A stretch of DNA of 37,908 nucleotides. Source: a virus. How positions within the stretch are numbered: position 1 is the stretch's first letter; each line of letters begins with the position of its first letter. Made by a program: the position numbers and the translations under genes. This document shows, in pieces, positions 188 to 21,413 of this stretch. The notes under the pieces were generated by a model that did no database searches, had not been told where the DNA came from, and saw only the letters and a program-made list of their open reading frames with translations. The stretch covers positions 1-37,908 of the IMG/VR virus record IMGVR_UViG_3300017917_000591; one strand, 5' to 3'.

Positions 188-1165
188 ATGCGATTCAACC
201 AAATACCATTTGAACAAATTGTCCGTTTTGGACAACAAACAATGTTGGACCGACCCTTGTTTTCCGTTAGTTGGATACTGGGTCGATTCTGTAATTATAA
301 CTGTAGTTACTGCTGGCCTTATGCTAGATCGGACAAAGTCGACCACTTGCCGTTAGATGTCTATTGCCAAACTATTGACCAAATAAAACAGCAGGCTAGA
401 CAAAATGGGTTTAATGAATTTCACTGGAGTTTTAGTGGTGGAGAGCCTACTGCATACAAACATCTTCCAGAGTTAATTAAACATTTGGATGAAACCGAAA
501 GCTCTTACCAAAGCATACACATGACAACAAATTTGAGCCCAGGTAGCAAGTGGTGGAAGTCTTGGTGCGAGCACACTAGTTTGTTACAGCGTAGAAGTAT
601 TACGGCTAGTTTCCACGATGAGTTTGCACGAGAACAAGAATTTGGAGACAAATGTTTACAGTTGATGTACGAGCTAGTCCACGTGACCATTAACCAAGTG
701 ATGGTTCCAGAAAAGTTTTACGAGCTATACGAACGTATGGAACGCTTTCATAAACGAGGAATCAACGTGACTCTAAAACCCCAAAGCGATGTAACTGCAA
801 GTCATGTTGTAGACGGATATACTGAAGACATGATACACCTAATGCAAGAAGGATTTCCTCAAAAGTCGCAGGGAGAAGACCTCTATCAAATTAGACTTAA
901 TGACGGTGCCAAAGATTATTACTTTGATCAAGCAGAAAGATTCAATGCATTTGGGTTTAACAAATTTAAAGATTGGACTTGCAATTCAGGATATCAAAGT
1001 GTTATAATTAGAGGTAATGAGGTCAAAAGAAGTTATAGCTGTAAAGATATGCCATTGGGAACATTAACCGATGGTTTTACGCTATTCGACAGTCCGCAAC
1101 GGTGTATTACCAATACCTGTGTAAGTTCGGCTGATTCTAAGATTCCCAAGGTAAAAAATGATTAA
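188..1165 (+). CDS. Radical SAM protein A
   Basis: This 325-residue protein is a radical SAM enzyme. The [4Fe-4S]-binding motif CNYNCSYC lies at residues 35-42 and the SAM-binding GGEPT at 84-88. Further cysteines in the C-terminal third (around WTCNSG, YSCKD and CITNTC) suggest an auxiliary Fe-S domain of the SPASM/twitch kind. It shares layout and motifs with the proteins at 3897 and 6563, so the three are probably paralogs. It heads an eight-gene co-directional run in which each gene overlaps the next, implying translational coupling. No strong ribosome binding site precedes the ATG, and a TAAATA-type motif ends only 6 nt upstream. The substrate is unknown; auxiliary clusters are common in peptide-modifying radical SAM enzymes. 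Confidence 0.88.
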   Translation: MRFNQIPFEQIVRFGQQTMLDRPLFSVSWILGRFCNYNCSYCWPYARSDKVDHLPLDVYCQTIDQIKQQARQNGFNEFHWSFSGGEPTAYKHLPELIKHLDETESSYQSIHMTTNLSPGSKWWKSWCEHTSLLQRRSITASFHDEFAREQEFGDKCLQLMYELVHVTINQVMVPEKFYELYERMERFHKRGINVTLKPQSDVTASHVVDGYTEDMIHLMQEGFPQKSQGEDLYQIRLNDGAKDYYFDQAERFNAFGFNKFKDWTCNSGYQSVIIRGNEVKRSYSCKDMPLGTLTDGFTLFDSPQRCITNTCVSSADSKIPKVKND

Positions 1166-1898
1166 CGGTATTGACTATAAAAAATTTGAAGCTGAGTTTT
1201 TACAAACAGACATAGGTAAACAAATAGTTAAGGATTTTGACCATGTAACATGCTCCGCATATAATATGCCTAGCATTATTTTTATGCGACATAAGTTCTC
1301 GGCTACTTGTAGAGAATTACTAGGTAGCAATGATCTCGCTGTTAAAAAACCAGTTACCCTTGTTTCAATTGTAACATTTTATTACCTACAATTTTTACAA
1401 GAAATAAATCCAAGTAAAATTTACGATATAGGCTGCGGATGGAATCTGTGGAAACGATACATTCCTAAAATTCACGGCGTTGATTGTAACGGTCCTTATG
1501 CAGACGAGATTGCTTACTATAATAAAGAATGGGTAGACAAACATGCAGGTACATTAGAGGCCGCCTTTACAGTTAACATGGATGTTGGACTAAAGGACAA
1601 TGTGCCCTGTACATTTGATAACATGTCGGAGCAAATATTAGAATTTGCTAGATTAATTCGTCCAGGCGGTCGTGGCTATATAAGCCTAGCAGTCTGGAGT
1701 CTTTACAAATCAACAAATCCTAACTGGTATAGAGATAATAATTGTAACCCCTATGATCCTGAAAGCATAAGACAGAAGACTAAAGAAATTATCTTGAAAC
1801 TTCCTCTTGACATAATTTGCTTAGACTGCGAGTTTGATATCTTTAAAAATATTCCTGCGCACGACGGCGAACTACGACTAGTGTTTGGAGTAAAGTAA
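1158..1898 (+). CDS. Class I SAM-dependent methyltransferase
   Basis: This 246-residue protein has a Rossmann-type motif I (YDIGCGWNLW, residues 89-98) followed by an acidic motif II region (HGVDCNG). A later segment, EFARLIRPGGRGYISLAVW, resembles the post-motif III region of class I methyltransferases. About 85 residues of unrecognised sequence precede the fold. The start codon lies inside the 3' end of the preceding radical SAM gene, and the stop overlaps the next methyltransferase at a TAATG junction. A methyl-transfer role is well supported by motif; the acceptor is unknown, and the operon context suggests it acts on the same substrate as the radical SAM enzymes. Confidence 0.75.
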   Translation: MINGIDYKKFEAEFLQTDIGKQIVKDFDHVTCSAYNMPSIIFMRHKFSATCRELLGSNDLAVKKPVTLVSIVTFYYLQFLQEINPSKIYDIGCGWNLWKRYIPKIHGVDCNGPYADEIAYYNKEWVDKHAGTLEAAFTVNMDVGLKDNVPCTFDNMSEQILEFARLIRPGGRGYISLAVWSLYKSTNPNWYRDNNCNPYDPESIRQKTKEIILKLPLDIICLDCEFDIFKNIPAHDGELRLVFGVK

Positions 1899-2518
1899 TG
1901 ACATGGAAGTTTGATAAACATGTATCCGAATACTACCTAGAGCATGTTCGCAGTCATATTCCGGACTTTAATACAGTAATTGATAAAACTATTGAATGCT
2001 GTATTAGTAGTTGTGATAAAGAGGATTTGATACTAGACTTTGGTTGTGCCACGGGTTACACATTGGACAAGCTACATCAGGCAGGTTTTAGAAATTTGTG
2101 CGGCGCAGACTCTAGTCAAGACATGTTAAACAAATGTGTTTCGCCTGCGAAATATATCTGTACCGATAATATACCTAAACTTCAATTTAAAGCAATAATT
2201 GCCAATTGGGTTTTACATTTTAACTTTAACAAAGAGCAGTTGATTAAAAATATCTATGATCAATTAGAAAATAACGGTATTGCAATAATAAGCGATAAGT
2301 TATCTCAAAGTAAATTTATTCAGGATAGATACTATAATTGGAAACAGTCGCAAGGTGTGTCTATTGATGATATACAACGTAAAGAGCAATCTTTAATTGG
2401 TGTTATGAATTTACACCCGATAGGCTACTATTATGACACGTTAACTTCTGTTGGTTTTAAATCTGTTGAAGTGTTTCACGGCAGTTGGGGGTTTGTTAGT
2501 TTACTGGCAAGAAAATAA
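1898..2518 (+). CDS. Class I SAM-dependent methyltransferase
   Basis: This 206-residue protein carries a typical motif I (LILDFGCATGYTLDKL, residues 45-60), then GADSSQDML as the acidic loop that contacts the SAM ribose. The size and order fit a small UbiE/BioC-like fold. It starts at a TAATG overlap with the gene before and ends at the same kind of junction with the gene after. It is the second of two adjacent methyltransferases between two radical SAM genes. They are not obviously close paralogs, which suggests different acceptor positions rather than a simple tandem duplication. The substrate is unknown. Confidence 0.78.
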   Translation: MTWKFDKHVSEYYLEHVRSHIPDFNTVIDKTIECCISSCDKEDLILDFGCATGYTLDKLHQAGFRNLCGADSSQDMLNKCVSPAKYICTDNIPKLQFKAIIANWVLHFNFNKEQLIKNIYDQLENNGIAIISDKLSQSKFIQDRYYNWKQSQGVSIDDIQRKEQSLIGVMNLHPIGYYYDTLTSVGFKSVEVFHGSWGFVSLLARK

Positions 2519-3900
2519 TGAGCAAAGCAAAAGAATACATTCAATCGATTGAAAATAAAACAGGTAGCAAAACTTTTTGCATATTACCTTGGATACATGT
2601 AGCTACACGACCAAACGGAGATGCTAGGCTTTGTTGCGGTAGTAATGCTAGTCAAGCAACTAACGGTATACTAGATGCAGGACTAGTTAAGACAGAAAAC
2701 GGCGAGCCTGCAAACTTTGGTAAAGATGGTTTACTAAGTGCAATTAATAACGAGTACATGCGGGATGTGCGTAAGACCATGTTAGCAGGAAAGATTCCTC
2801 TTAGTTGTGCAAAATGTTTTGAAGAAGAACAAAATGGTATTATCAGCAAACGAGTATGGGAGCTGTACTATTGGGAAAATGAAGGGCTTGATCTTAAAGA
2901 AATTATCGACAGTACTGATATCGATGGAACAATACCTCCTGTAATAAAATATCTGGATCTTCGACTAGGACATACCTGTAATTTAAAATGTGTAATGTGT
3001 ACACCACACGATAGTAGTCGCTGGGTACAAGATCATGCCGCAATAACTAAAACTGTTAAAAGTCCTATTGTGCTTAAACAGATCATGTGGGATGCTGACA
3101 AGTTTGACAACTACTGGTACGAGAAGCCAGAACTATGGACTGAAATCTTTAATCAAATTCCTAACATTCGTCAATTATATTTTGCTGGTGGCGAACCTTT
3201 AATGATTAAAGAACACAAACGTTTTTTAGAGGAAATAGTTGCTAGAGGATACGCAAAGAATATTACTGTAAGATATAACAGTAACGGACTTTTTGTAGAC
3301 GACTACATTATCAACTTGTGGAGTAATTTTAAAGAAGTTCGCTTTGCCTTTAGTATCGACGCAGTTGGCGACAGGAATCACTACATTAGGTATCCAGCAG
3401 ACTGGGACACTATCGTAAAGAACTTGCACATACTAGACAACACACCAGACAATATAAAAATTGGTATAGCCTGTGCTGTACAGATTTTTAATGTAAAGCA
3501 TATTATTGATTTTGCCAAATGGAAAATACAACAAAACTTTAAAAAAATCAACTTGTTTAAAGTAAACGAAGTCGTTGCTGGCGGCGGCATCATTAATATG
3601 CACATGTTGTACATACCCACATTCTTAAGTGCAAGAATGTTGCCTAAAGAAGACAAAGACCAGTTAATCAAAGACTTTGCAGATTTTAAAGATTGGCTGT
3701 GGAATAACTATACTCAAGATGATGATTTCTGGAAACACAATCCTAACGGATGGAAACGTTGGGAGGGTATACTCAGCTTTGTTCTTGCAGAAGATCACAG
3801 TAACCAACTTTCAGATTTTAAAGAATATGTCAGTAACTTAGATCAGATAAGAGGACTAGATGCTAAAACTATATTTCCCGAGTTGGCGCATATATTATGA
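2518..3900 (+). CDS. Radical SAM protein B with N-terminal twitch-like cysteines
   Basis: This is the largest radical SAM protein of the run, 460 residues. The cluster motif CNLKCVMC is at about 154-161 and GGEP at 224-227. Unusually, cysteine-rich segments precede the core: FCILPWIHVATRPNGDARLCC starts near residue 20, and a CAKC pair is at 97-100. The phrase around CILPWIH is known to me from phage proteins annotated as twitch-domain radical SAM proteins. This points to an auxiliary cluster bound by N-terminal residues. It starts at a TAATG overlap and runs 4 nt into the next radical SAM gene. The substrate is unknown. Confidence 0.87.
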   Translation: MSKAKEYIQSIENKTGSKTFCILPWIHVATRPNGDARLCCGSNASQATNGILDAGLVKTENGEPANFGKDGLLSAINNEYMRDVRKTMLAGKIPLSCAKCFEEEQNGIISKRVWELYYWENEGLDLKEIIDSTDIDGTIPPVIKYLDLRLGHTCNLKCVMCTPHDSSRWVQDHAAITKTVKSPIVLKQIMWDADKFDNYWYEKPELWTEIFNQIPNIRQLYFAGGEPLMIKEHKRFLEEIVARGYAKNITVRYNSNGLFVDDYIINLWSNFKEVRFAFSIDAVGDRNHYIRYPADWDTIVKNLHILDNTPDNIKIGIACAVQIFNVKHIIDFAKWKIQQNFKKINLFKVNEVVAGGGIINMHMLYIPTFLSARMLPKEDKDQLIKDFADFKDWLWNNYTQDDDFWKHNPNGWKRWEGILSFVLAEDHSNQLSDFKEYVSNLDQIRGLDAKTIFPELAHIL

Positions 3901-4892
3901 AAGAACTTATTCAAATAGAAAATAATAAAAAAGACACGCTTAGGATCATGTATAACCTAAGCAATGTCTGCAACTATAAATGTTGGTATTGTTTTCCCGG
4001 ATGTAATGACGGTACTGTAGGCTGGCCCGACTTGACCACTGCCAAATTGAATATGAAGCATTTATTGGAATACTATTTTAATAATGGTACAAATGACATC
4101 AATTTAAATTTAATAGGCGGTGAGCCATCCTTGTGGAGAGATTTAGGTGAGTTTGTACAGTACATAAAAGATAACGTTAATAAAAAATGGTATCAAAAAA
4201 TTCGAATCAGTATGCAGACCAATGCTTCCAGAACATTAAGATGGTGGGAAGAATACGGACACTATTTTGACCATGTTAGTATCAGTGTGCATGGTGAACG
4301 TGCTGATCCGCTACACATATCTAAAGTGGGACAAATTTTAGTAGATAAAGGCGTTTTTTGTTTTGCTTCTGTATTAATGGATCACAAACATTGGGACAAG
4401 TCTGTTGAGTTAGTTGATACAATTTTATCTACAAAGACATCCTTTATGGTACAGGTTAAACCAATACATGTAAATGGAATTTATAACTACACTGATTCTC
4501 AGAATTCTTATTTGTCAGAAACTATTAAAAGAAAACCAAGTATCAGTCAAGCTATTAAGAACTATAAAACTATATCTTCTATACCAACTATCACCGCATC
4601 GTATAGCGACGGCTCTAAAATAAAAACCAAAGTTGCTTACAAGATAGTTCAGGAGGGTATTCAAAGCTTCACAGGATGGAGTTGTAGTATTGGACAGACT
4701 TGGATATACATTAACCTAGAAGGCAATATAACCGGAACCTGCGGCAATAAATTATACGGAGTCGATTATTTCTACAACATAAATGACAAAGATTTTGTCA
4801 ATAAATTTGCACCAAAACTTACATCAGTTATTTGCGAAAAAGGAAACTGTAGTTGCGAAGGTGAAATAGTATTAGCAAAAAAGAAAATATGA
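3897..4892 (+). CDS. Radical SAM protein C
   Basis: This 331-residue radical SAM protein has CNYKCWYC at residues 25-32 and GGEPS at 74-78. The C-terminal region holds several more cysteines (GWSCSIGQ, TGTCGNK, VICEKGNCSC), consistent with a SPASM/twitch auxiliary cluster. It aligns by eye with the proteins at 188 and 6563: same N-terminal distance to the cluster, same GGEP context, and a shared aromatic-cysteine segment before the C-terminal cysteines. It begins 4 nt inside the preceding gene and its stop overlaps the start of the next methyltransferase (ATGA). The substrate is unknown. Confidence 0.87.
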   Translation: MKELIQIENNKKDTLRIMYNLSNVCNYKCWYCFPGCNDGTVGWPDLTTAKLNMKHLLEYYFNNGTNDINLNLIGGEPSLWRDLGEFVQYIKDNVNKKWYQKIRISMQTNASRTLRWWEEYGHYFDHVSISVHGERADPLHISKVGQILVDKGVFCFASVLMDHKHWDKSVELVDTILSTKTSFMVQVKPIHVNGIYNYTDSQNSYLSETIKRKPSISQAIKNYKTISSIPTITASYSDGSKIKTKVAYKIVQEGIQSFTGWSCSIGQTWIYINLEGNITGTCGNKLYGVDYFYNINDKDFVNKFAPKLTSVICEKGNCSCEGEIVLAKKKI

Positions 4893-5491
4893 ACATAGAT
4901 ACAGAACACATACATCATTGGATGCGAGCTATTCGTAATAGTAAAAATCCTATGCGTACCATGGACGCTTTTTGGAGTGGACAAATAAAAAGCAAAGAAT
5001 GGATTATCACCGAGTTGAATAAGGTAAGGCACTATACAGTAGATTGGCCTACCGTAGATATACACGGTGGTTGGGTCGGTGTATTAGCCAGTATGTTATT
5101 TCAAAGTAACTTGTATCTGAAGAATATTAGATCTGTAGATATTGATCCAGAATGCGAAGCAATCGCTAACGACATGAACCAACTAGAATTAGAAGCTGGC
5201 AAGTTTCGAGCTGTTACCGCAGATATGTGTGACTTGCGCAGTGATGCTGATATTATAATCAACACTAGCTTTGAACATATAACACAAGATCAATACGACC
5301 TATGGCTATCAGGACTTCCTCAAAATAGTTTAATAATTTTACAAAGTAATGACTACAAGATACCAGAGCATGTTAGAACTGCTAGTACCTTAGAAGAGTT
5401 TAAAGTACAATCGGGGCTGACACGCATATTCTACTCGGGTGAATTAGAATTGCCGCTCTATACAAGATTTATGATAATTGGTAGCAAATAA
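4889..5491 (+). CDS. Probable class I methyltransferase
   Basis: This 200-residue protein is probably a SAM-binding methyltransferase, although motif I is degenerate. The segment VDIHGGWVGVLASMLF takes the motif I position, NIRSVDIDPECEAIAND gives a clear acidic motif II, and FRAVTADMCDL plus DIIINTSFEHI resemble the next two strands. No catalytic NPPY-type motif is visible. It starts at an ATGA overlap and ends at a TAATG overlap, so it belongs to the same coupled operon. An alternative is a SAM-binding protein that has lost methyl transfer. The acceptor is unknown. Confidence 0.62.
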   Translation: MNIDTEHIHHWMRAIRNSKNPMRTMDAFWSGQIKSKEWIITELNKVRHYTVDWPTVDIHGGWVGVLASMLFQSNLYLKNIRSVDIDPECEAIANDMNQLELEAGKFRAVTADMCDLRSDADIIINTSFEHITQDQYDLWLSGLPQNSLIILQSNDYKIPEHVRTASTLEEFKVQSGLTRIFYSGELELPLYTRFMIIGSK

Positions 5492-6570
5492 TGTTTAACT
5501 TTCAAGACCTCAAAACCGTTCATTTGGAAATCAGTACAAGGTGCCAAGCATCTTGTCCTATGTGTCCACGCAACTATCACGGAGGTTTAGAAAATCCTAA
5601 TTTAAAAATAGCCGATTGGACTTATGCAGATTTTATACGTATTTTCGACACCGATACTTTAAAGCAGATAACTGGCATTTATTTTTGCGGAAACTTCGGC
5701 GACCCTATCATGAACGATGATTTGATACTCATGTGCCAATATCTAAAGGACCATGCTCCAACAATTGATTTAAGAATTCATACAAACGGTGGCGCAAGAA
5801 GTACTCGTTGGTGGCAGGCTCTTAGACAGTCGTTGCCAGACAAGCACGTAGTCATATTTGCCTTAGATGGATTAGAAGATACACACCATTTATATCGTAT
5901 TGGCACTAAGTATGAAAATGTAATACGTAATGCGTCTACTTTTATTAACGAAGGCGGAACAGCTGAATGGGTCTTTATTAAATTTAAGCATAATGAGCAT
6001 CAAGTTGAAGAAGCCGAACGCAGAAGCAAACAACTAGGTTTTGCTAGATTTGCTGTGAAGAATACAATTAGATTTATTGGAGAACCTAAGTTTAGCGTAC
6101 TAGACAAAAACGGAGAACACAAATACTATTTAGAACCTCCAGAAACTAATCAAGTTATTTTAATCGATCGGCAGGCAGTAGAGAATTTTAATACTTGGTA
6201 TAAGGAAACTGAAATAGAATGTTACGCTCAGGTTAATAAAGAAATTTATATTGATGCTCATAGAAATTTATTCCCTTGTTGCTTTTTAGCCAGCGCACCT
6301 TATAACCACAGTTATTCACAGCCGTTACTTACAGATATTAGAAACAAGATTGTTGAACAGTATCACGGTTTAGTAGACAGTATAGGCGGTATAAACAATC
6401 TAAGTTTAGACAGCCATTCTATCAAAGAAGTAGTTAATAGTACTGCTTGGCAAACAGTATGGGACGAATACTGGACTAGTAAAAAACTTATTACCTGTGC
6501 TAGAACCTGCGGTAAAACAAATTTGTCAAAACCCAAAGACCAATTTGTTAAGAGAACTAATAATGAATAA
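5491..6570 (+). CDS. Radical SAM protein D, SPASM-like
   Basis: This 359-residue protein has the cluster motif CQASCPMC at residues 18-25 in a context (LEISTRCQASCPMCPRN) typical of SPASM-type radical SAM proteins. The GGEP position reads CGNFGDPIM, a recognised variant in this subgroup. The C-terminal half has ECYAQVN, LFPCCFL and CARTCGKT, enough cysteines for one or two auxiliary clusters. It is less like the A/C/E trio than those are to each other. Its last 8 nt overlap the start of the next radical SAM gene. SPASM proteins often modify peptides, so a peptide or protein substrate is plausible but unproven. Confidence 0.86.
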   Translation: MFNFQDLKTVHLEISTRCQASCPMCPRNYHGGLENPNLKIADWTYADFIRIFDTDTLKQITGIYFCGNFGDPIMNDDLILMCQYLKDHAPTIDLRIHTNGGARSTRWWQALRQSLPDKHVVIFALDGLEDTHHLYRIGTKYENVIRNASTFINEGGTAEWVFIKFKHNEHQVEEAERRSKQLGFARFAVKNTIRFIGEPKFSVLDKNGEHKYYLEPPETNQVILIDRQAVENFNTWYKETEIECYAQVNKEIYIDAHRNLFPCCFLASAPYNHSYSQPLLTDIRNKIVEQYHGLVDSIGGINNLSLDSHSIKEVVNSTAWQTVWDEYWTSKKLITCARTCGKTNLSKPKDQFVKRTNNE

Positions 6571-7639
6571 GTTTTTTGCTATTCATCCTGTTAATCAAGA
6601 TCCATTTATTATCACGTGGGACCTTGGCCGTAGATGTAATTACGACTGTAGTTACTGCCCTAGTCATAGGCATGATAATTTTAGCTCTCACGCAAGTTTA
6701 GAAGAACTAAAAGATAGCACAGAGTTTTTGTTTGCGTATATTTCAACAGTATCAGAACAGAGAATCAATAAAGATTTTCACGTGAGCTTTACTGGAGGGG
6801 AACCAACAGTAAACCCAAACTTCATAGCATTTGTCAGTTACTTGAAAGAAAGATACCATTCCTCATTTGCAAATAAGTTTAATTTGCAACTTGACTTAAC
6901 TACCAACGGCGCAATGAGTGAAAAAATGGCCCAGGCAGTTATCAAAGAATTTGATTATGTTACAGTTAGCTATCATGCAGAAGCTGTAGACAAATTAAAA
7001 ACTCAGGTCATTGAAAGAATTGAACAGTTTCACAATAGTGATATTAAATTAAAAGTTAATGTAATGTTTCATGCACAGTATTTTTCTGAATGTCAGGACT
7101 TGTGCGAACAATTTAAAATACTAGGTATTCGCTACATACCTAGGTTGATAGGTGATGATCCTGACAGCAAGTCTAGTCAAGCACATTTGTACACAGCAGA
7201 ACAAAAATCATGGCTTACAGAATTCTGGGGAATTGATTTTAACCCTACAGGACGACCTTGCTGTGGAGGAAGGACATTTGGTGTATGTAGTTCGGACGGT
7301 GTTGAACACACCAAGTACTTGAATAACAGGGAATTTAAAGATTGGTATTGTAGTGTAAACTGGTTTTTCTTACATATAGAACAGCAAACAAAATTAATCT
7401 TTCATCATCAAACCTGTCAAGCAAGATTAGATGGCACCCGAGGACATATTGGATCACTTGAAAACTGGACGAGCATTATAGACAATTTAGAAACTATGCT
7501 GTCTCAAAAAGAAATGCCGTTGGTTGTTTGCCCTAATAAACTTTGTGGCTGTGGGTTATGTACACCTAAAAGTGAAAACAGGCACAACTTACTAGAAGTC
7601 ATGCCTGCAATAGTCAAAGATATTTCAGTTTTTAATTAA
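6563..7639 (+). CDS. Radical SAM protein E
   Basis: This 358-residue radical SAM protein has CNYDCSYC at residues 25-32 and GGEPT at 78-82. It is rich in C-terminal cysteines (RPCCGG, VCSS, WYCSV, QTCQA, VCPNKLCGCGLC), arguing for one or more auxiliary Fe-S clusters. I chose the ATG at 6563 because it lies at the usual distance before the cluster motif, matches the paralogs at 188 and 3897, and overlaps the preceding stop by only 8 nt; an in-frame ATG at 6497 would add 22 residues with no family counterpart. It is the last gene of the left operon and converges with the fibre-like gene, the stops overlapping by 4 nt with no terminator visible. Confidence 0.87.
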   Translation: MNKFFAIHPVNQDPFIITWDLGRRCNYDCSYCPSHRHDNFSSHASLEELKDSTEFLFAYISTVSEQRINKDFHVSFTGGEPTVNPNFIAFVSYLKERYHSSFANKFNLQLDLTTNGAMSEKMAQAVIKEFDYVTVSYHAEAVDKLKTQVIERIEQFHNSDIKLKVNVMFHAQYFSECQDLCEQFKILGIRYIPRLIGDDPDSKSSQAHLYTAEQKSWLTEFWGIDFNPTGRPCCGGRTFGVCSSDGVEHTKYLNNREFKDWYCSVNWFFLHIEQQTKLIFHHQTCQARLDGTRGHIGSLENWTSIIDNLETMLSQKEMPLVVCPNKLCGCGLCTPKSENRHNLLEVMPAIVKDISVFN

Positions 7640-8797: not shown

Positions 8798-8805
8798 TAT
8801 TTATT
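8798..8805 (-). promoter_or_regulatory. Late-promoter-like motif before the fibre-like gene
   Basis: On the minus strand the sequence reads AATAAATA, one or two changes from the T4 late -10 element TATAAATA. It lies about 40 nt before the fibre-like start codon. The assignment rests on similarity to the other TAAATA motifs in this block, not on any proof of function. Confidence 0.4.
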
Positions 8806-12536: not shown

Positions 12537-13371
12537 TTTCTAATTCTATCCTACGATGCTTGATTACATCTGTTTCGTATTCTGTTTGATCTTCTACATC
12601 GCCTAAAATTTTAAATGCATCCCATCTTTGCTGACAATTAAAACATTTTCCACAATGTTTTCCAACACGAGTTAAACTGTCTTGTATACAAGAGCTAGTT
12701 CCATATAATATATCCAGTATTCCTAGTTGTCTATAAAAATCTACTACTTCGCTCTTATTGATATTTTCAAAAGGGCTTTTAATAAAACTTGAAGATCCTC
12801 GCAATAACGGATACACTTCTGCCGGAATATCAATGTCCAGTAGATGATTAGTGTAAACGTCAGTGGGCAAGTGAAATTCTTCTATAGTTGATTTAAACTT
12901 TTCTGGGTTACTAGACGCAATTCTTTTTACTTCTTCGATAGTCATTCCTGGCTGTTTGAATTCTTCTACTTCAAAGAATAATTTTGTAAAACCAAACATA
13001 ACAAAATCCACCGAGTATGTTTCTTTTAAATTTAGCATTTTATCTTCGATGGATTGTTTTCTGTTTGTCACGTGAGCTGTATAATCAAAATTCAAGTATG
13101 TGGGTGTTATGTTTAATAGTTTTGCTGCTCTTGAAATATTAGTGTTTATGTGTGTATTCTTGTCTACATCGTTACAACTAAAAATATCATCAGAGTAAAA
13201 AAACAAAACATTTTCTTTCCCATAAATTTTGTCAGCTAGATAACTTATGAGACAAGACTCCATTCCTCCGGATAAAAATACTCCCATTTTTCGATTAGGG
13301 GAGAGTTTTGGAAAATGGACGTCCAATACAAAATTAACATTGTTTGGTTTTAGAGTGTACACGGGTTTCAT
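12520..13371 (-). CDS. QueC-like PP-loop ATPase
   Basis: This 283-residue protein has the N-type ATP pyrophosphatase signature as SGGMES (residues 34-39), where the usual SGGxDS aspartate is glutamate. The C-terminus has C228 and then CGKCFNC (240-246) followed by QQR, which matches the four-cysteine zinc site of 7-cyano-7-deazaguanine synthase QueC. QueC makes preQ0 from carboxydeazaguanine, and relatives also amidate other carboxylates. The length exceeds usual QueC by about 50 residues, and no QueD, QueE or FolE partner is in the window. It is the first gene of the minus-strand operon, divergent from the methyltransferase at 13439. A role in amide or nitrile formation on the pathway's substrate is as likely as nucleoside synthesis. 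Confidence 0.72.
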   Translation of the reverse strand: MKPVYTLKPNNVNFVLDVHFPKLSPNRKMGVFLSGGMESCLISYLADKIYGKENVLFFYSDDIFSCNDVDKNTHINTNISRAAKLLNITPTYLNFDYTAHVTNRKQSIEDKMLNLKETYSVDFVMFGFTKLFFEVEEFKQPGMTIEEVKRIASSNPEKFKSTIEEFHLPTDVYTNHLLDIDIPAEVYPLLRGSSSFIKSPFENINKSEVVDFYRQLGILDILYGTSSCIQDSLTRVGKHCGKCFNCQQRWDAFKILGDVEDQTEYETDVIKHRRIELENVIHS

Positions 13372-13438: not shown

Positions 13439-14068
13439 ATGGAACGAATTACAGAACCTGAATTAATGACAGATCCTGATCAGGCAATATCCTATCACGA
13501 GAATGATAGAAACCAAATTAAACATTTATTTAAAGTAGCCTATCAAGCAGCTAAAAAACAAATACCAGAAACACTAGTGGATCTAGGATGCGGCCCGGGG
13601 GATTTAACCTATGAGATTGCTGAAATGTATCCTTCAGCAAACGTTACCGGAATAGACGATAGTGAAGAAATGCTATCCTTGGCCAAGACTCGAGACAATC
13701 TTAAGTTTGTAAAAATGCCTATAACTGAAGTAACTGATCATTACGCTAGGGTCATATCGTCATTAACCTTGCATCATTTTCACGATCCTTTACAATTTTG
13801 GAATTCAATAAAAAGAATAGCACCACGAGATATTTTTATATTAGATTTTATTCGTCCTGAAAGTGAAGAAGATTTACAACGAATAGTTCAACATCGCGGA
13901 TACCTGGAAGGAAAATTCAAAGAAGATTTTGAAAATAGTCTAAGAGCTTGTTTTACTATAGATGAAATAAAGCAACAATTAGAAGATTGTAATTTAAAAT
14001 TAACAGTTCACGAAGTAGATCAGTTTCACCTTAAGGCAGGAGTTGTTATAATTTCGGGCGTTTTATGA
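13439..14068 (+). CDS. Class I SAM-dependent methyltransferase
   Basis: This 209-residue protein is a textbook small methyltransferase: TLVDLGCGPGDLTYEIA (residues 45-61) is motif I, GIDDSEEML is the acidic loop, and ISSLTLHHFHDP plus IKRIAPRDIFILDF follow. It heads a plus-strand run of five overlapping or closely spaced genes with a dehydrogenase, two cupins and an oxygenase. Its last codons overlap the dehydrogenase start by 4 nt. The acceptor is unknown; together with the dehydrogenase and cupins it suggests tailoring of a small molecule or side chain. Confidence 0.85.
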   Translation: MERITEPELMTDPDQAISYHENDRNQIKHLFKVAYQAAKKQIPETLVDLGCGPGDLTYEIAEMYPSANVTGIDDSEEMLSLAKTRDNLKFVKMPITEVTDHYARVISSLTLHHFHDPLQFWNSIKRIAPRDIFILDFIRPESEEDLQRIVQHRGYLEGKFKEDFENSLRACFTIDEIKQQLEDCNLKLTVHEVDQFHLKAGVVIISGVL

Positions 14069-14628
14069 GAATAGCAATCACTGGACATAGCCAAGGTCTC
14101 GGCAAAGCAATCGCAGATCATTTTCAAAATTTTGGACATACTGTTATAGGTTATAGCAGAACAAATGGGTTTGACATTTCCCAGGAAGATACTAGAAACA
14201 AAATTATTGAAGAATTAAAATCTTGCGATGTTTTTATCAATAATGCATACGCTCCTTTTGCACAAAAAGACCTTTTAGTTAGAGCTATCGATTTATGGAA
14301 AAATGATAACAAAACAATTATCAATATCAATAGTAAATCAACATTAATAGCTGTTTGTCCAGATTACATGAAAGAATATGCTGCTGATAAACAACAGCAA
14401 CAAAAGATAATACGAGATCGAATCTTTAAAGCAAGACCTTATATTATGAATTTTACACCTGGTTTAATTGACACAGCTATGTCTGAAAATTTTAAATCAA
14501 AAAAATTAAATACAAAAAAGTTAGCTGAATTTATATATGTACTGCTAGAATTTAAAGATAGTATAGCAATACAAGATGTGTTAGTAGAAGTTCCTGATTT
14601 AGATTGGAACGACATCGAGAGACTATAA
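14065..14628 (+). CDS. Short-chain dehydrogenase/reductase
   Basis: This 187-residue protein belongs to the SDR family. It has the nucleotide-binding glycine motif TGHSQGLG (residues 6-13), the structural FINNAYAP segment (58-64, equivalent to NNAG), a serine in ININSKS and a candidate catalytic YAADK (Y105-K109). It is shorter than the usual 230-250 residues, so the C-terminal substrate region is reduced. SDR enzymes interconvert alcohols and ketones using NAD(P)H. It is coupled to the methyltransferase before it and to the cupin after it by overlaps of a few nucleotides. The substrate is unknown. Confidence 0.78.
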   Translation: MRIAITGHSQGLGKAIADHFQNFGHTVIGYSRTNGFDISQEDTRNKIIEELKSCDVFINNAYAPFAQKDLLVRAIDLWKNDNKTIININSKSTLIAVCPDYMKEYAADKQQQQKIIRDRIFKARPYIMNFTPGLIDTAMSENFKSKKLNTKKLAEFIYVLLEFKDSIAIQDVLVEVPDLDWNDIERL

Positions 14629-15132: not shown

Positions 15133-15696
15133 ATGAGCGAAACAGTTTTTCATAGACCCGATTTAAACATGTCCTTTTTTCCTTCTATCAATCCTCACAA
15201 GGATTTAGAGATTCCTGAAACTTGGGCAAATGTAAAAGAGTTTGCCGATTGGTGGATGCAAGCAGGAATGCCTATTATATTTCCCAAGAACCCTGAAGTC
15301 TTCTTATCCGATGATGCATCTGCTGTTGCAATTTTTAGGCACGGAAGATTTCAAGTAGAGATGTATCTGATACATCCTCATCCAAAAGTTCCAGAACACG
15401 AACATCCAGATGTTGAGGTCATTAAAATGCGCTTGGGCAATACTAAAACGCCTATCATGAGCGGAGTATTAAAAAATGGCCAAGCACACGGTGCTGGTAT
15501 GCGTATGGAAGCAGAAACACTTGGTTTTCCATTACTTGCGTTTCAGCACTGGTTAACACGTGACCCAACAACTGTTGCGTCTATGTGGAAGGGTACAACC
15601 GTAGGACCGTTACAAGAAGCTCTTATCAAGAGATTTAATCCAGATGCTTATGTTGTGGATGGCTATGCAGATATTACAAGAACGAGTAATGAATGA
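15133..15696 (+). CDS. Cupin-like protein, second copy
   Basis: This 187-residue protein is a paralog of the preceding cupin, sharing the tryptophan-rich N-terminal helix, the GRFQVEMYLI strand and the histidine motif VPEHEHPDVEV (residues 86-96). It carries an extra N-terminal stretch of about 30 residues and lacks the long insert that follows the motif in the first copy. A C-terminal tail (VVDGYADITRTSN) is unique. The start lies 4 nt after the preceding stop, and its own stop overlaps the oxygenase start. A complex between the two cupins is possible but not shown. Confidence 0.75.
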   Translation: MSETVFHRPDLNMSFFPSINPHKDLEIPETWANVKEFADWWMQAGMPIIFPKNPEVFLSDDASAVAIFRHGRFQVEMYLIHPHPKVPEHEHPDVEVIKMRLGNTKTPIMSGVLKNGQAHGAGMRMEAETLGFPLLAFQHWLTRDPTTVASMWKGTTVGPLQEALIKRFNPDAYVVDGYADITRTSNE

Positions 15697-16316
15697 GTAC
15701 GCTGGATCTGTTCGCAGTAAAAATTTATAAAACTCAGTACCCGCAAGTTGACGTTATTCGCGAGCAACTTTTTCCCAAGCTAATAGACCTGTTTGAACAA
15801 ACTAAGAATAATAATGTAGAATCGATGTATAACGGTACATTATGTACTTACAATACCAACGCATTACTTCAAACTTACCCAGAGACACAAGAGCTAATAG
15901 CATTTGCAGAACTTCATGCTAGGCAATATTGGAAACAATTAAAATACTCGCCTTTGCTCGAACCAAAAGTTATTCAAGTATGGGCGAACGAAACACCGCA
16001 CAGTGGTTGGGTAAGAAGTCACTTACACGGATCTATGCCATTAACAGCAGTTTTGTATGTGAGCGCAGAAAAGGGTATGGGTAACTTAGTAATTGAAAAT
16101 CCATTAGACGCAATATTATCATCACAGCCAATGGATTATAAGGAACAAGAATTACTACATCACGAAGTAGAAGTTACTACTGGCGACTTTGTAATGTTTC
16201 CTGGCTGGATTAGACACCATGTTAAACCTAACACGACAAACGAGAAGCGTTTGATAATAGGTATTAACTTTGGGTCTAAAGGAAACTATCTCACAGGTCA
16301 GTGGGTTTCGGCATAA
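15693..16316 (+). CDS. Putative 2OG-Fe(II) oxygenase (TIGR02466/PF13759-like), first copy
   Basis: This 207-residue protein resembles a family of putative 2-oxoglutarate/Fe(II) oxygenases that is frequent in marine phages. Typical features are QVWANETPHSGWVRSHLHG with H110 and H112 as candidate ligands, the strand AVLYVSAEKGMGNLVIENP, then FVMFPGWIRHHVKPN (H175/H176) and a C-terminal arginine (KRLIIGINF) that may bind 2-oxoglutarate. It is the last gene of the plus-strand run and converges with its paralog on the opposite strand, the 3' ends overlapping by 26 nt. The substrate is unknown. Confidence 0.75.
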   Translation: MSTLDLFAVKIYKTQYPQVDVIREQLFPKLIDLFEQTKNNNVESMYNGTLCTYNTNALLQTYPETQELIAFAELHARQYWKQLKYSPLLEPKVIQVWANETPHSGWVRSHLHGSMPLTAVLYVSAEKGMGNLVIENPLDAILSSQPMDYKEQELLHHEVEVTTGDFVMFPGWIRHHVKPNTTNEKRLIIGINFGSKGNYLTGQWVSA

Positions 16317-16941: not shown

Positions 16942-16951
16942 AAAAGTACTC

Positions 16952-16959: not shown

Positions 16960-16985
16960 ACTCAACTATTTAACACAGATCAACC

Positions 16986-18527
16986 ATGCACGGAATTATT
17001 TTAACAGGGGCGTCAGCAATGCTTAACAACGCACCCCAGTTCAAAAGAACTGGTGGCGCCCATAGAATCGCAACATACCTTAGAGATAGAAACTGGGATG
17101 TAGAAGTTTTAGATTTTGTAATGGGTTGGAATTTGGATCAGTTGAAAGAATTTACTAGATCTAGGCTGCATAGTAAATCTGTATTTGTAGGCTTTGGAGG
17201 AACTTTTCCAATTTGGTCAGACACTTTAGAAAAGTATTTCTCCTGGTTAAAGCAAGAGTATCCTGAAATAAAAATTATTGCAGGTGGCCAAATTAGCAAC
17301 ATTTACAAAATTAATGCTGATTGGTATGTTGACGGTTTTGGAGAACGTGCTCTTGAAGAGTTGTTAAAACATATTACTGGCTCTAGCTCAGAAAAGTTAA
17401 AATACCAGTTAGGCATTAATGGAAGAAAAATTTTAAAAGGTAACTTAGATTATCCGAGCTTTCCAATGTCTGAACTTCATATTAGATACGAAGACAGAGA
17501 TTTTATCATGCCTGATGAAACATTGGTTACAGAGTTAGGCAGAGGCTGTATCTTTAATTGTGCATTCTGTAATTTTCCTATACTAGGTGTAAAAGAAGAT
17601 CATTCAAGGTCTGCTGAAAATTTTAGAATGGAATTACAAGATACATATGACAGGTTCGGTGTAACCAAGTATGTTATAGCAGATGAAACAGTAAATGACT
17701 ATACAGCAAAGTTAGAAAAGTTTGCAGTAGCAACAAAGCAGTTAACATTCCGTCCTAGATTATTTGGATTTGCAAGAGGGGATTTGCTGGTTGCTAGAAA
17801 ACAAGATTGGGATATAATGTTAGAACTAGGATTCACTGGACATCATTATGGAATAGAATCTGCGAATCCAGCAAGCCTTAAAGTTATAGGCAAGGGTATG
17901 CACCCGGACAAATTATTGCCAGGGTTGCTTGAAGCAAGAAATTATTTTAAAAAGCATTCAATATACAAAGGACAAGTTAGTTTAATTGTAGGACTTCCTT
18001 ACGAAACTAGGGAAACATTAAACAGTACACTTAAATGGTTTGAAAGTAATTGGAAGAAAGAAAATTTACAAATGTTTCCGCTATACATTCCAAAAGCAGA
18101 TGGTGCGGACAACGCTTCGAAGTTTTCTAACGATTGGGGGAAATATGGATTTAGAAAAACTGCAATAGATTTATATCCTGCGGTAAAAACATTGTTTCGT
18201 TCGATTCCCACACAGTATGGTGTGGGGGATAATTTTTTAGAAGATACAGGAATTAGTTGGGAAACAGATGAATGGAATTTAATCGATGCTTGTAAGATTG
18301 TTGCTGATTTTTATCTCAACGATTACACAAAAAACTACGGTCCGGTGATATGGAACTACGGGGACTTAGAGTCTGTGTTTAATAAACCTTACGATTTTTT
18401 TATAGATAAAACTATATCAGAAATTTTTGACAATACAGGCTGTAATGATTTTACTGATTTCTATACAGCATCAACAATTCGCATTAACGATTATATTACT
18501 AAAAAATTAAACTGGACACCTAGTTAG
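16986..18527 (+). CDS. Radical SAM protein H with N-terminal B12-binding-like domain
   Basis: This 513-residue protein parallels the one at 9351. It has an N-terminal Rossmann-like region (IILTGASAMLNNAPQ, WDVEVLDFVMGW, VFVGFGGTFPIWSD, IIAGGQISNIY) and the radical SAM motif LGRGCIFNCAFCNF with cysteines at 188, 192 and 195. Both proteins share FIMPxETL before the cluster and a YGIES or FGIES segment downstream. No DxHxxG is seen, so cobalamin binding is uncertain. Class B radical SAM enzymes often methylate unactivated carbon or phosphorus. The gene stands alone on the plus strand and converges with a methyltransferase by 4 nt. Confidence 0.85.
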   Translation: MHGIILTGASAMLNNAPQFKRTGGAHRIATYLRDRNWDVEVLDFVMGWNLDQLKEFTRSRLHSKSVFVGFGGTFPIWSDTLEKYFSWLKQEYPEIKIIAGGQISNIYKINADWYVDGFGERALEELLKHITGSSSEKLKYQLGINGRKILKGNLDYPSFPMSELHIRYEDRDFIMPDETLVTELGRGCIFNCAFCNFPILGVKEDHSRSAENFRMELQDTYDRFGVTKYVIADETVNDYTAKLEKFAVATKQLTFRPRLFGFARGDLLVARKQDWDIMLELGFTGHHYGIESANPASLKVIGKGMHPDKLLPGLLEARNYFKKHSIYKGQVSLIVGLPYETRETLNSTLKWFESNWKKENLQMFPLYIPKADGADNASKFSNDWGKYGFRKTAIDLYPAVKTLFRSIPTQYGVGDNFLEDTGISWETDEWNLIDACKIVADFYLNDYTKNYGPVIWNYGDLESVFNKPYDFFIDKTISEIFDNTGCNDFTDFYTASTIRINDYITKKLNWTPS

Positions 18528-19282
18528 CATTTAGTCCACATAGCTCGCCAACCAGATACAGATAATCCATCGGGTGGTGCCATATTATCAACATGTTTTG
18601 GTAGTCGTTTATCAAACGGTTGAAGCACAGGCTCGCTTTTCATTATTTCAGATATTTCTCCAAGCACATCTGTGTCCTTCAGTGCTCGTAGATCCATTAC
18701 TAGTTTGCCGCCTTTCTTTAAACTATTGTAGGCCTTGTTCCAATAAGTGTCTACAGGATAGTGCCACCCCCAGGATAGATACGATGTAACACAATCTACT
18801 TCTTCAGGAAAGTCTGATTTTTCTCCTAACAGAGTAAAACGGTCAAGTCCTAGGTTAGACGCTTGTATGGCATCAACTACCGGCGCCCAATTATGATACA
18901 TAGGATAATTTTTATCATAATATATCCCGGGCTTAAATTCAAATCCTTCTTTATCAACTAACCAAAATTTACTGTTAGGTATATAAGATGCTAGTAATAA
19001 ATCTATAACAGAAACGCCACATCCTATATCTATAATTTTAGCGTTCTCTGGCAAATTAAACACACCCTGTTCATAGCGTTGATTCCAGAAGTGCTGGTAC
19101 CATCTTGGAAAGTATTCAAAAAAGAGCTGCAAACTTGATGGCTGGTTTTGTAAATATAGCCCTGCTTGAATGTTAGACCATTTTGCTAGTTCATCTACAT
19201 CGTTCCACTTTACCGTTAAATCGCCTTTATCTGTGGCAATTTTAAGTGTGTATGTTGTCCATTCTTTGATATATTCTTGCAT
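18524..19282 (-). CDS. Class I SAM-dependent methyltransferase
   Basis: This 252-residue protein has motif I as AKIIDIGCGVSVIDLLLA, WLVDKEGF as the acidic region, DCVTSYLSWGWHYP as motif II/III and NSLKKGGKLVMDLRAL as the post-III strand. About 90 residues with many aromatics (YLQNQPSSLQLFFEYF) precede the fold and may form a substrate lid. A TATAAATA motif, identical to the T4 late promoter, sits 19 nt upstream and a GAGGA ribosome binding site precedes the ATG. The substrate is unknown. Confidence 0.8.
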   Translation of the reverse strand: MQEYIKEWTTYTLKIATDKGDLTVKWNDVDELAKWSNIQAGLYLQNQPSSLQLFFEYFPRWYQHFWNQRYEQGVFNLPENAKIIDIGCGVSVIDLLLASYIPNSKFWLVDKEGFEFKPGIYYDKNYPMYHNWAPVVDAIQASNLGLDRFTLLGEKSDFPEEVDCVTSYLSWGWHYPVDTYWNKAYNSLKKGGKLVMDLRALKDTDVLGEISEIMKSEPVLQPFDKRLPKHVDNMAPPDGLSVSGWRAMWTKC

Positions 19283-19301
19283 TTAGCGTTCCTCGTGAAG
19301 G

Positions 19302-19309
19302 TATTTATA
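19302..19309 (-). promoter_or_regulatory. Perfect T4-type late promoter -10 (TATAAATA)
   Basis: The minus-strand octamer TATAAATA is identical to the T4 late -10 element and lies 19 nt before the methyltransferase start at 19282, leaving room for a start site and the GAGGA ribosome binding site. It is the best single match in the window and anchors the looser TAAATA motifs nearby. Confidence 0.55.
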
Positions 19310-19322
19310 GAGTTATATTTTA

Positions 19323-19330
19323 GATAAATA
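19323..19330 (+). promoter_or_regulatory. Late-promoter-like motif GATAAATA
   Basis: GATAAATA on the plus strand lies 31 nt before the start at 19361, divergent to the TATAAATA copy 14 nt away. Its distance matches the motifs before the genes at 13439 and 16986. Confidence 0.45.
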
Positions 19331-19360
19331 AGAATGTGAAGCACTTAAGGGCGTCTAAAT

Positions 19361-20080
19361 ATGGATTTTTCGTTTATATCAAATATCATTTCTAATACCG
19401 AACAGTCAGAGCTGTTTGACAGTCTGAACGAACGTTTTGAATATTGGAATAGTTATAACAGAATTGGGTTATTTTATAACAACTTACCTCACAGAGATGC
19501 GATTGATTTTGCGACTGAGGTATTTAAAGATGGCTTTATAATTGTAACAAGCCAGTCAATTTTTTATGACAATTTATCAACAGGAGATTGTCACAGTTTA
19601 GAAAAAACATGGGACGATAACAGTTATAGTTTATTCTGTCAGTTATCTGAAAGTGCTACACCGGTTAGAATTGATTATGCAGCAGATAGACGAATTGTAG
19701 ATATAGGCGGTACACAGTGGATGTATACTAAGTATGTAGCTCCTAACAAGGAGTACGGTGAATCAATTATGTTACAGCCCCAGGACGCCTATAGCGTAGC
19801 ATCTAAATTTGTAGATGAAGCAGCTTTGATAATTGAAAAAGTTCAATCAATATCGATTCACAGAGCACCAATACGTATGCTTAACCCTTGTAACTGGTAT
19901 AAGGATAGCATAGGGTGGTTTTGGGCAAACTTGTATGATTGGTCTTCAGATTTAGAAACAGAAAAGTCTAACGGCCTTTTGTACTTTAAAATGACCTTAG
20001 ATACTAGTTTAGCGGCAAATAAAATGAATAGTAGTCAAGTAGAAGAACTATTAGCCTATGCAAAAACTAAGTGGAGATAA
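19361..20080 (+). CDS. Hypothetical protein
   Basis: I do not recognise this 239-residue protein. It is rich in aromatic residues and acidic patches, with no signal peptide, membrane segment or cysteine motif. Segments such as GFIIVTSQSIFYDNL and SNGLLYFKMTLDTSL look like beta strands of a soluble globular protein. A late-promoter-like motif lies upstream and AAGGG precedes the start at a suitable distance. It is followed by a small gene on the same strand after 1 nt, so the two are probably coexpressed. Its place between methyltransferase and oxygenase genes is the only clue to a role. Confidence 0.7.
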   Translation: MDFSFISNIISNTEQSELFDSLNERFEYWNSYNRIGLFYNNLPHRDAIDFATEVFKDGFIIVTSQSIFYDNLSTGDCHSLEKTWDDNSYSLFCQLSESATPVRIDYAADRRIVDIGGTQWMYTKYVAPNKEYGESIMLQPQDAYSVASKFVDEAALIIEKVQSISIHRAPIRMLNPCNWYKDSIGWFWANLYDWSSDLETEKSNGLLYFKMTLDTSLAANKMNSSQVEELLAYAKTKWR

Positions 20081-20081
20081 T

Positions 20082-20285
20082 ATGAAAGAATTCTACAAAT
20101 TAGAGATTTACAAAAATGCCGAACTAGTACATACACAAGAAGGCCATTTTTCGATAATGTACAGATTGCTCTTTCAATGGTACTATCCAAACTCCCCTTA
20201 TACCGTAAAATTAAAAGCGATAACAGGCAAGCAAATTGATGTTACTCAAATTCCTTCTTTGCTAGAAGAGAGTATTAAATTGTAA
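20082..20285 (+). CDS. Small hypothetical protein
   Basis: This 67-residue protein of unknown function starts MKEFYKLEIYKNAE and ends VTQIPSLLEESIKL. It is mixed beta/alpha by appearance, with several aromatics (LLFQWYYPNSPYTVKL) and no cysteine. I use the ATG at 20082, which is preceded by GGAGA and follows the upstream stop by 1 nt; the upstream in-frame start lies inside the preceding gene. Its 3' end overlaps the convergent oxygenase-like gene by 40 nt. It lacks the double-glycine or cysteine-rich core expected of a modified precursor peptide. Confidence 0.6.
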   Translation: MKEFYKLEIYKNAELVHTQEGHFSIMYRLLFQWYYPNSPYTVKLKAITGKQIDVTQIPSLLEESIKL

Positions 20286-20956
20286 GCACTAGGTAGTACA
20301 CTTAAGAAAAATTGATATACTGGGCCTGTTGCTGCTGCATCGTGTACTAGGCTAGTATCGATTACATAAATTCTTCCAGACTCAACAGGCTCTATTTTAA
20401 TAGGGCCTTTTTTATCGTAAAAACAAATTTCCATATTATTTGCATCTGTTGTGCCCCACAGTCTTATCCAAGGAGAAGGAACAACTGTATCAATGTGCGG
20501 CATAAATCTTGCACCGTTATCCCATTTAAGGATATTAGATCTACACCAATGACCGTCAAATAATTTCAGTAGTCTTAAACTTGGTAAATCTAGTACTTCT
20601 GTTGAAGTTAAACAATCAGTTTCTAATAATGAACTGTTTGGATGTTTATTATTCCACTCGTATAAAGATCCGTTTATAGGATCATTTAATTTTAAAACTC
20701 CATCTTGATTAACAACTGCCAGACCTAGTCTAGGAAGTTCTGTAAATTGCGAGCCCCATTGTTCAAAATATACTTTATATTGTTCTATCTCTTCTTTAAA
20801 TTTATCACAATCAATCTTTATGTTTAATGGAGTAAGGGGTTTTGTATGTAATCTGTGGTAGTCTTCTTGACTTATTTTAGACAAAGCATTCAGCCGACTT
20901 TGACTATTGGCAAACACATTTAATGTATTGTCTATAATACTATCGATATCAATCAC
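20246..20956 (-). CDS. Putative 2OG-Fe(II) oxygenase
   Basis: This 236-residue protein has a plausible 2-His-1-Asp facial triad: H154 and D156 in ARFMPHIDTVVP and H205 in DTSLVHDAA, separated by the distance usual for double-stranded beta-helix oxygenases. The strand SGRIYVIDTSLVHD resembles the aspartyl/prolyl hydroxylase type in phages. The arginine expected to hold 2-oxoglutarate is not obvious after H205. It overlaps the preceding oxygenase-like gene by 8 nt, so the two are coexpressed. The substrate is unknown. Confidence 0.7.
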   Translation of the reverse strand: MIDIDSIIDNTLNVFANSQSRLNALSKISQEDYHRLHTKPLTPLNIKIDCDKFKEEIEQYKVYFEQWGSQFTELPRLGLAVVNQDGVLKLNDPINGSLYEWNNKHPNSSLLETDCLTSTEVLDLPSLRLLKLFDGHWCRSNILKWDNGARFMPHIDTVVPSPWIRLWGTTDANNMEICFYDKKGPIKIEPVESGRIYVIDTSLVHDAAATGPVYQFFLSVLPSAYNLILSSSKEGI

Positions 20957-21413
20957 GGATGTACTTTCCTATCTTAGCAGCTACTTGTTCGAACGTTTCG
21001 TTGAAGATAGAAATCTTAAACATGATTCGTTCAGTTTCGTTGTTTTTTACCGAGTGCGGTTTTGTAGTGTCTATTAGCACAGACTCGTAAAAGTAATCTT
21101 TATCGCCGTAGGATATAGGACTTGCATTGTCAGTGAGTATAAAATTTAAACCGCATAGTGTACCGTTGTCTATATGTTCTGGGATTACAGCAAACGGTTT
21201 AAGCCAATAAAACCTAGGCTTACCTGCTACACCAAAGTCAGTCATAATCTTTTCTATGTAAGGACTCGATGCGTGACCTATTAACCAATCGTCCATTTTA
21301 AGATTAGGATATCGTGAATCAGTGTAGCCTGTTGCAAGACTTTTGACTTGCAGAGCTTCTTGTAAAAGTTGCTGTTTATCTAATTGGTAATTTAGATGTA
21401 TTACTGGTTCCAT
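20949..21413 (-). CDS. Putative small 2OG-Fe(II) oxygenase
   Basis: This 154-residue protein carries H80 and D82 in VIPEHIDNGTLCGLNFIL, H120 in IDTTKPHSVKNNE and R129 (ERIMFKISI), a complete set for a compact 2-oxoglutarate/Fe(II) oxygenase. The HSVxN context resembles aspartyl/asparaginyl hydroxylase-like phage proteins. It is the first gene of a two-gene unit with the larger oxygenase-like protein. A CTATAAAATC segment 20-25 nt upstream could be a variant promoter. It lies just downstream of the rIIB terminator, which marks the border between the modification block and the early-type genes. Confidence 0.7.
   Translation of the reverse strand: MEPVIHLNYQLDKQQLLQEALQVKSLATGYTDSRYPNLKMDDWLIGHASSPYIEKIMTDFGVAGKPRFYWLKPFAVIPEHIDNGTLCGLNFILTDNASPISYGDKDYFYESVLIDTTKPHSVKNNETERIMFKISIFNETFEQVAAKIGKYIRD

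Follow-up and report, generated by a model that had tools for sequence, protein, structure and literature searches.

The IMG/VR record IMGVR_UViG_3300017917_000591 is a 37.9 kb virus fragment, analysed here over all its 37,908 nucleotides (the window), and its contig ends at the first gene, g1, of a dense block of enzyme genes at positions 188–21413. We re-annotated the 26 open reading frames (ORFs) of this block with Pfam, PHROGs and NCBIfam. They comprise eight radical SAM (rSAM) proteins, five methyltransferase-like and five 2-oxoglutarate (2OG) oxygenase-like proteins, two cupin-like proteins, one short-chain dehydrogenase (SDR) and one QueC-like protein. A first-pass annotation, made from the sequence letters, had arrived at the same counts, and they hold with Pfam, PHROGs, NCBIfam and motifs; part of the tally draws on weak scores or motifs alone, as marked gene by gene below. 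It had also noted that structural genes are almost lacking, and the sole one in the block is indeed the tail-fibre-like g9. The features are as follows.

1–111 (−): tRNA-Leu-like RNA, lacking a standard anticodon arm in this phage, divergent to g1; covariance model R1 92.5 bits, and covariation; 3′ end cut by the contig edge
188–1165 (+): g1, rSAM, twitch/SPASM-like, core; PF04055 44 bits
1158–1898 (+): g2, putative methyltransferase (weak), lineage-specific; Methyltransf_11 E 0.095; DIGCGWN motif
1898–2518 (+): g3, methyltransferase, lineage-specific; Methyltransf_23 1.4e-9; phrog_4752 4.5e-30
2518–3900 (+): g4, N-terminal-twitch rSAM, core; NF033640 391.9 bits, cut-off 170
3897–4892 (+): g5, rSAM, core-associated; PF04055 43 bits
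4889–5491 (+): g6, class I SAM methyltransferase fold, core; AlphaFold model pLDDT 92.6; Foldseek
5491–6570 (+): g7, rSAM, core; phrog_21308 4.7e-22
6563–7639 (+), ATG at 6563: g8, rSAM; PF04055 45.7 bits
7636–8757 (−): g9, tail-fibre-like protein; Mtd_N E 2e-4, below cut-off
8804–9409 (−), ATG at 9376: g10, putative GNAT-like acyltransferase; conserved motif only, no Pfam or PDB match
9351–10811 (−): g11, B12-type rSAM; PF04055 64.6 bits; PhpK-like 75 bits, cut-off 600
10804–11376 (−): g12, Asp/Asn beta-hydroxylase-type 2OG oxygenase; PF05118 31 bits; HSD..H
11373–12536 (−): g13, rSAM with HMPTM zinc ribbon, Tes-like; PF23545 and PF04055; PDB 7tol 6.5e-21
12520–13371 (−): g14, QueC-like PP-loop ATPase; PF06508 34 bits; PP-loop and CxxC invariant
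13439–14068 (+): g15, methyltransferase; Methyltransf_31 2.2e-15
14065–14628 (+): g16, SDR; PF00106 34 bits
14604–15128 (+): g17, cupin; PF07883 E 0.0023, below cut-off; HxH motif
15133–15696 (+): g18, cupin-like protein; HxHxxxE motif, no Pfam match
15693–16316 (+): g19, 2OG-Fe(II) oxygenase; PF13759 56.5 bits
16291–16965 (−): g20, 2OG-Fe(II) oxygenase; PF13759 61.2 bits
16986–18527 (+): g21, B12-binding rSAM; PF04055 53 bits; PF02310 E 4e-4
18524–19282 (−): g22, putative methyltransferase; weak Pfam; IDIGCG motif; conserved in block
19361–20080 (+): g23, no family match (Pfam, PHROGs)
20058–20285 (+): g24, small protein; apparent relatives in five related loci, by eye
20246–20956 (−): g25, 2OG-oxygenase-like; HID...H motif; conserved in block
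20949–21413 (−): g26, 2OG-oxygenase-like; HID...H motif; conserved in block

PF04055 matched at exactly eight places, lying within 18 kb, and the CxxxCxxC motif is kept in all eight. Seven of these matches are above the Pfam cut-off; g7 scores 28.3 bits against a cut-off of 29.5, and its rSAM identity is backed by the phrog_21308 match. In an alignment of 22 g1 rows, all rSAM cysteines and four C-terminal cysteines were invariant. Among the methyltransferases, g3 and g15 have clear Pfam matches, and g2 and g22 are weak in Pfam (E 0.095 and 0.0086, respectively) and both carry a glycine-rich SAM-type motif. g6 has no Pfam match, and PDB searches with g6 and g10 were without result; with the AlphaFold model of g6, however, Foldseek found class I SAM methyltransferases in the PDB. 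The oxygenases g12, g19 and g20 were assigned by Pfam and g25 and g26 by an HxD...H motif alone, the cupin g17 lies under the Pfam cut-off, and g18 is motif-based only.

We then compared the proteins with curated families. g4 scores well above the cut-off of NF033640 (N_Twi_rSAM), a model for rSAM proteins with a twitch domain whose name does not point to a function. More specific identities were rejected throughout, i.e., viperin for g1, g5 and g8 (NF038283; 36, 49 and 44 bits, cut-off 180), the tetraether lipid synthase Tes for g13 (NF045702; 89 bits, cut-off 450), a PhpK-type B12 rSAM methyltransferase for g11 and g21 (TIGR04479; 75 and 64 bits, cut-off 600) and QueC for g14 (TIGR00364; 28.2 bits, cut-off 150.3). 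g14 is thus over the Pfam and far under the NCBIfam cut-off; its PP-loop SGGxxS and cysteine zinc motif are invariant in six homologues. PADLOC returned for the window a generic rSAM similarity to viperins, a weak QueC match and PDC-M51A, and nothing further.

A scan of viral contigs with g7 gave 342 relatives, and 80 of these loci were fetched for neighbourhood counts. g6 was near g7 in all 80. When only loci with room on both sides were counted, 38 of 39 had g1 and 34 of 39 had g4. We describe g1–g8 (188–7639) as a core rSAM/methyltransferase operon; its ORFs overlap in their reading frames. g2 and g3 had no homologue among the fetched loci. Most of g11–g26 is kept in the same or nearly the same order in the loci G005, G006, G007, G008, L222, L223, L228 and L285, and accessory genes are present but rearranged in L231. 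Most accessory families recur together in about ten contigs, although not all genes do so, g15 and g18 being found in few loci only. Individual viral contigs hold up to 15 rSAM matches (331 kb contig), and one of 66 kb holds 13. For 16 genes of the close pair L223 and L282, dN/dS was 0.009–0.17, i.e., the compared genes are under purifying selection in this pair. No close cultured-phage homologue of g1, g4, g6 or g7 was found. The gene set is hence conserved, intact and co-inherited: the co-occurrence check proposed in the first-pass annotation returned conserved synteny across related phages, not singly scattered genes, and the catalytic motifs are not degenerate. With synteny conserved and motifs intact, the block is most naturally read as a single locus for tailoring in several steps, as had been suggested from gene content; that the enzymes act on one substrate is the part that we infer.

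The core is not confined to viruses. A genome scan with g4 led to Bdellovibrionota metagenome-assembled genomes (MAGs), several of the contigs being 100 kb to 1.6 Mb long. Homologues of g1 (48–53% identity), g4 (42–50%) and g7 (33–38%) stand together in one locus, and several loci have a g6 homologue (33–37%) as part of a larger protein. g1 occurs in 22 of 369 Bdellovibrionota genomes. In G020, the cluster stands between the genes for SerRS and for a GmhA-like SIS protein, MurA being close by, and is therefore chromosomal; an SDR and a QueC-like PP-loop protein are also encoded in it. The cluster of G030 is preceded, at a distance of about 4 kb, by Bac_transf and Polysacc_synt_2 genes. A maximum-likelihood tree of g1 placed the viruses in at least two groups, with a group of six viruses among bacterial rows (97/94 support), which indicates transfer between phages and bacteria more than once; no weight was given to the bacterial row B_G259_002, whose branch is very long. 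We conclude that the core has been exchanged between phages and Bdellovibrionota chromosomes.

Two further contigs were excluded as bacterial evidence. L155 (PBPT01000016.1, 335 kb, from a 'Neomarinimicrobiota' MAG) was left out because one of its genes, encoding the F3 protein described below, is 100% identical to that of the viral contig L015; it probably stems from a jumbo phage that was assigned to a bacterial bin. L140 (PUNK01000001.1, 3.5 kb, from a 'Thermoplasmata' MAG) carries core rSAM genes with up to 59% identity and is probably viral contamination.

A further family, F3, accompanies the core. F3 proteins have about 225–310 residues, sometimes within a longer protein. Of 21 clustered regions, 12 contain F3, and all but one of these 12 are from Bdellovibrionota. 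In most phages outside the sub-lineage of the window, the F3 gene ends just upstream of g1; in the lineage of the window it has been lost. A DxD motif is invariant, and with the AlphaFold model (pLDDT 89.5) the best PDB matches in Foldseek were glycosyltransferases, but weak ones (E 8e-5, TM about 0.4). F3 may thus be a GT-A-like partner of the core, as judged from a weak match of a predicted structure. The earlier statement that no glycosyltransferase is present accordingly stands for the block itself, but reflects in part the window edge and the lineage, since F3 precedes g1 in most other phages and KdsA and glycosyltransferase-like genes lie past g1.

Divergent to g1, the window encodes a tRNA-Leu-like RNA, with further copies at L228:1394–1494, L090:8264–8376, L040:4327–4436 and some 100 loci more. 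In the acceptor, D and T stems, 98.6% of cells are paired, and five pairs show compensatory changes. Most copies have a variable arm with an NUA triloop, and 13 of 14 aligned RNAs encode an ACCA 3′ end, the window copy being cut. The window copy had no ARAGORN call and no Rfam match at the gathering threshold, three loci had no Rfam match at E 0.05, and no match was found in cultured phages. A strict anticodon-arm test was failed by 58 of 63 distinct copies; the same test finds 13 of the 18 window tRNAs and hence misses some true tRNAs. An anticodon arm is present in five copies, and in four its loop reads CTCATAG (CAU). Among 79 copies, 57 are 34–77 nt away from g1, 20 are elsewhere and two could not be judged. 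We hence see the RNA as belonging to the phage lineage and placed preferentially at the g1 locus, and as no more than a candidate member of the pathway.

To the right of the block, the window encodes rIIB, rIIA, an RNA ligase/tail-fibre attachment protein, a phage RNA-binding protein (phrog_850) and a tRNA cluster, with 18 tRNA genes near the block. Three features here were noted in passing: a TauD-type dioxygenase within the tRNA cluster (34467–35516, −), with a 48% identical homologue inside the G001 block; a 97-nt tRNA at 34145–34241 (−), which Rfam detected and ARAGORN missed and which has a long variable arm and perhaps a UAU anticodon; and an ORF at 32430–33392 (−) that by eye looks like a GT9-type heptosyltransferase, without Pfam or PHROG match. 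In relatives, the T4-type proteins gp43, gp44, gp46/47 and gp55 show 24–36% identity to the cultured T4-like pelagiphage HTVC008M, and we therefore take the lineage as an uncultured one of aquatic phages in the T4 superfamily.

Beyond g1, where the window stops, G005, G007 and G008 encode ThyX, PTPS (QueD-like), a KdsA/DAHP-synthase-family protein and glycosyltransferase-like ORFs, and G007 and G008 also a tryptophan-halogenase-like protein; the far-side proteins of G007 and G008 were confirmed with Pfam, and the glycosyltransferase-like ORFs were judged by eye. KdsA matches proteins of one gammaproteobacterial MAG (57% identity) and of Bdellovibrionota (up to 56%), from which no host was inferred. 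Near its rSAM island (L112:19322–20157), G007 encodes the Fe-S assembly proteins IscU (NifU_N 181 bits) and IscA type and, further out, a 2,529-residue tail-fibre protein and a baseplate–tail-fibre connector. The pelagimyophage host-recognition cluster has its place between VrlC and gp14; VrlC/gp14 was not detected in relatives, although these show a tail fibre and baseplate connector nearby, and HTVC008M structural proteins were too diverged to serve as markers for the far flank.

Dense rSAM clusters in phages are already known, at a similar genomic place, and the first-pass view that no assembly this complete had been seen in phages does not hold. The Campylobacter phages CP220 and CPt10 (Firehammervirus) encode 11–12 rSAM proteins, including an interchangeable five-gene module (PMC2853527), and some pelagimyophages carry rSAM cassettes in their host-recognition island (PMC7029224). 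In our scans, PF04055 matched 11 times in CP220 (178 kb) and once in HTVC008M (147 kb); we regard the eight matches in the window as beyond chance. As in CP220, at least five rSAM genes are clustered near tail fibres in a T4-related phage; this relatedness is based on rIIA/rIIB and the tail-fibre-like gene in or near the block and on the T4-type replication genes of relatives. The proteins are, however, only about 24–28% identical at best, and the g7 match covers half its length. Moreover, the CP220 cluster has a glycine amidinotransferase, which the window lacks, and the paper mentions no oxygenase (PMC2853527). In the enlarged block of G001 (L106), two ORFs (84387–85373 and 88273–89259) look amidinotransferase-like by eye; one was tested and had no Pfam match. 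With the pelagimyophage host-recognition cluster, the block shares being a large variable island by tail fibres, but that cluster is described as mostly tail fibres and lipopolysaccharide (LPS) glycosyltransferases, with no core like g1–g8 (PMC7029224). Bdellovibrionota loci such as L141, L143 and L145 hold homologues of g1, g4, g7 and g6 and similar SDR, QueC-like and B12-type proteins, whereas most Bdellovibrionota loci carry F3 and other accessory genes. In the open-access literature searched, we found no description of the core genes as a set or of their occurrence in both phages and Bdellovibrionota, nor one of what the bacterial multi-rSAM loci do. The lineage, its two-module make-up and the phage–bacterium sharing thus appear to be new.

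What the enzymes act on can be narrowed only tentatively. The reading that we favour, as possible though not yet probable, is that they tailor a host-surface glycoconjugate during infection and form a two-module island in the host-recognition region. The core module, one operon of twitch-type rSAM enzymes and a class I methyltransferase, would work with the GT-A-fold glycosyltransferase-like partner in bacteria and most phages. The accessory module (g10–g26) could contribute B12-type C-methylation, hydroxylation by five 2OG oxygenases, O/N-methylation, an ATP-dependent amidation-type step (QueC-like) and reduction. Successive modification of one glycoconjugate, such as the LPS core, an O-antigen-like sugar or a glycolipid, might alter the receptor for competing phages or stabilise the infected cell. 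We infer the common substrate, its nature as a surface glycoconjugate, the reaction types, their timing and the benefit. A surface glycoconjugate is favoured because of the GT-A-like partner, the bacterial home of the core, and the nearby KdsA and polysaccharide genes; the bacterial home moreover argues against a phage-only substrate. Several points weigh against this reading. The GT-A match of F3 is weak, just one examined bacterial locus adjoins polysaccharide genes, and the block of the window has no sugar-nucleotide enzyme and has lost F3. Peptides, lipids and nucleotides are likewise substrates of radical SAM and twitch enzymes.

Less probable, though to be taken seriously, is that the targets are virion proteins, above all the neighbouring tail fibres, which the block would modify after translation. 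Hydroxylation, methylation, epimerisation or cross-linking would then change how stable or how specific the adhesin is. This would fit g9 within the block, the fixed order of g13, g16 and g9 in many other contigs, the giant tail-fibre genes flanking the block in G007, the four 2OG oxygenases between tail fibres and gp13 in HTVC008M, and the five clustered rSAM genes between baseplate and tail-fibre genes in CP220. It explains the tail-fibre position but leaves the bacterial copies unexplained, as these lie in chromosomes without tail-fibre genes, and Pfam scans of the block rSAM proteins found no RRE/PqqD peptide-recognition domain. The lack of an RRE, and of a non-ribosomal peptide or polyketide synthase, also makes it unlikely that the block yields a small molecule, i.e., a peptide- or aminoacyl-derived product directed at competitors or host, for which the adjacent tRNA-like RNA might be a feeder. 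The toolkit of rSAM, B12-type rSAM, methyltransferases and hydroxylases does resemble peptide tailoring clusters, and the RNA is mostly close to g1, with a g10-like gene directly after it in L028. Nevertheless, it lies away from g1 in 20 loci, and no convincing precursor peptide was found: across 19 bacterial regions, no small ORF turned up beside the core in three or more, and neither of two conserved small ORFs in phages looks precursor-like. A special form of this idea, in which a leucylated phage tRNA-like RNA without decoding arm is the aminoacyl donor for an rSAM-tailored surface or secreted conjugate, with the enzyme core common to Bdellovibrionota, is the least probable proposal considered here and highly speculative.

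Somewhat less likely than a small-molecule product is a gathering of independent auxiliary genes in a recombination hot spot, without common pathway. T4-like phages have hypervariable islands at such places (PMC7029224), accessory content differs between lineages, with g2 and g3 being private to that of the window among the fetched loci, and g13 is elsewhere found beside primase, nrdA/B, uvsW or baseplate genes. The core, however, has its adjacency fixed in 80 of 80 loci, overlapping frames and the same form in bacteria. Quite improbable, finally, is a role on nucleic acid, either 7-deazaguanine-type DNA modification or modification of phage tRNAs. The QueC-like g14, the PTPS gene in the G007 flank, the 18 tRNA genes and the phrog_4752 'tRNA methyltransferase' match of g3 point this way. 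Against it, g14 falls far short of the equivalog cut-off for QueC, no protein tested reached that for QueE (NCBIfam), and G001, which has the core, showed no tRNA gene over its 119 kb.

What had seemed an oddity of a single contig is hence a defined and widespread module of at least three twitch-type rSAM enzymes and a methyltransferase, with a putative GT-A-like partner in most phages and bacteria. The bacterial version makes the chemistry of the core accessible in the laboratory, as no phage of this lineage so far does. Phages and some Bdellovibrio-type bacteria share a putative tailoring pathway for some molecule, with the cell surface as the leading candidate site. If its product is a surface glycoconjugate, phages would here remodel the envelope by radical chemistry in a way that is new.

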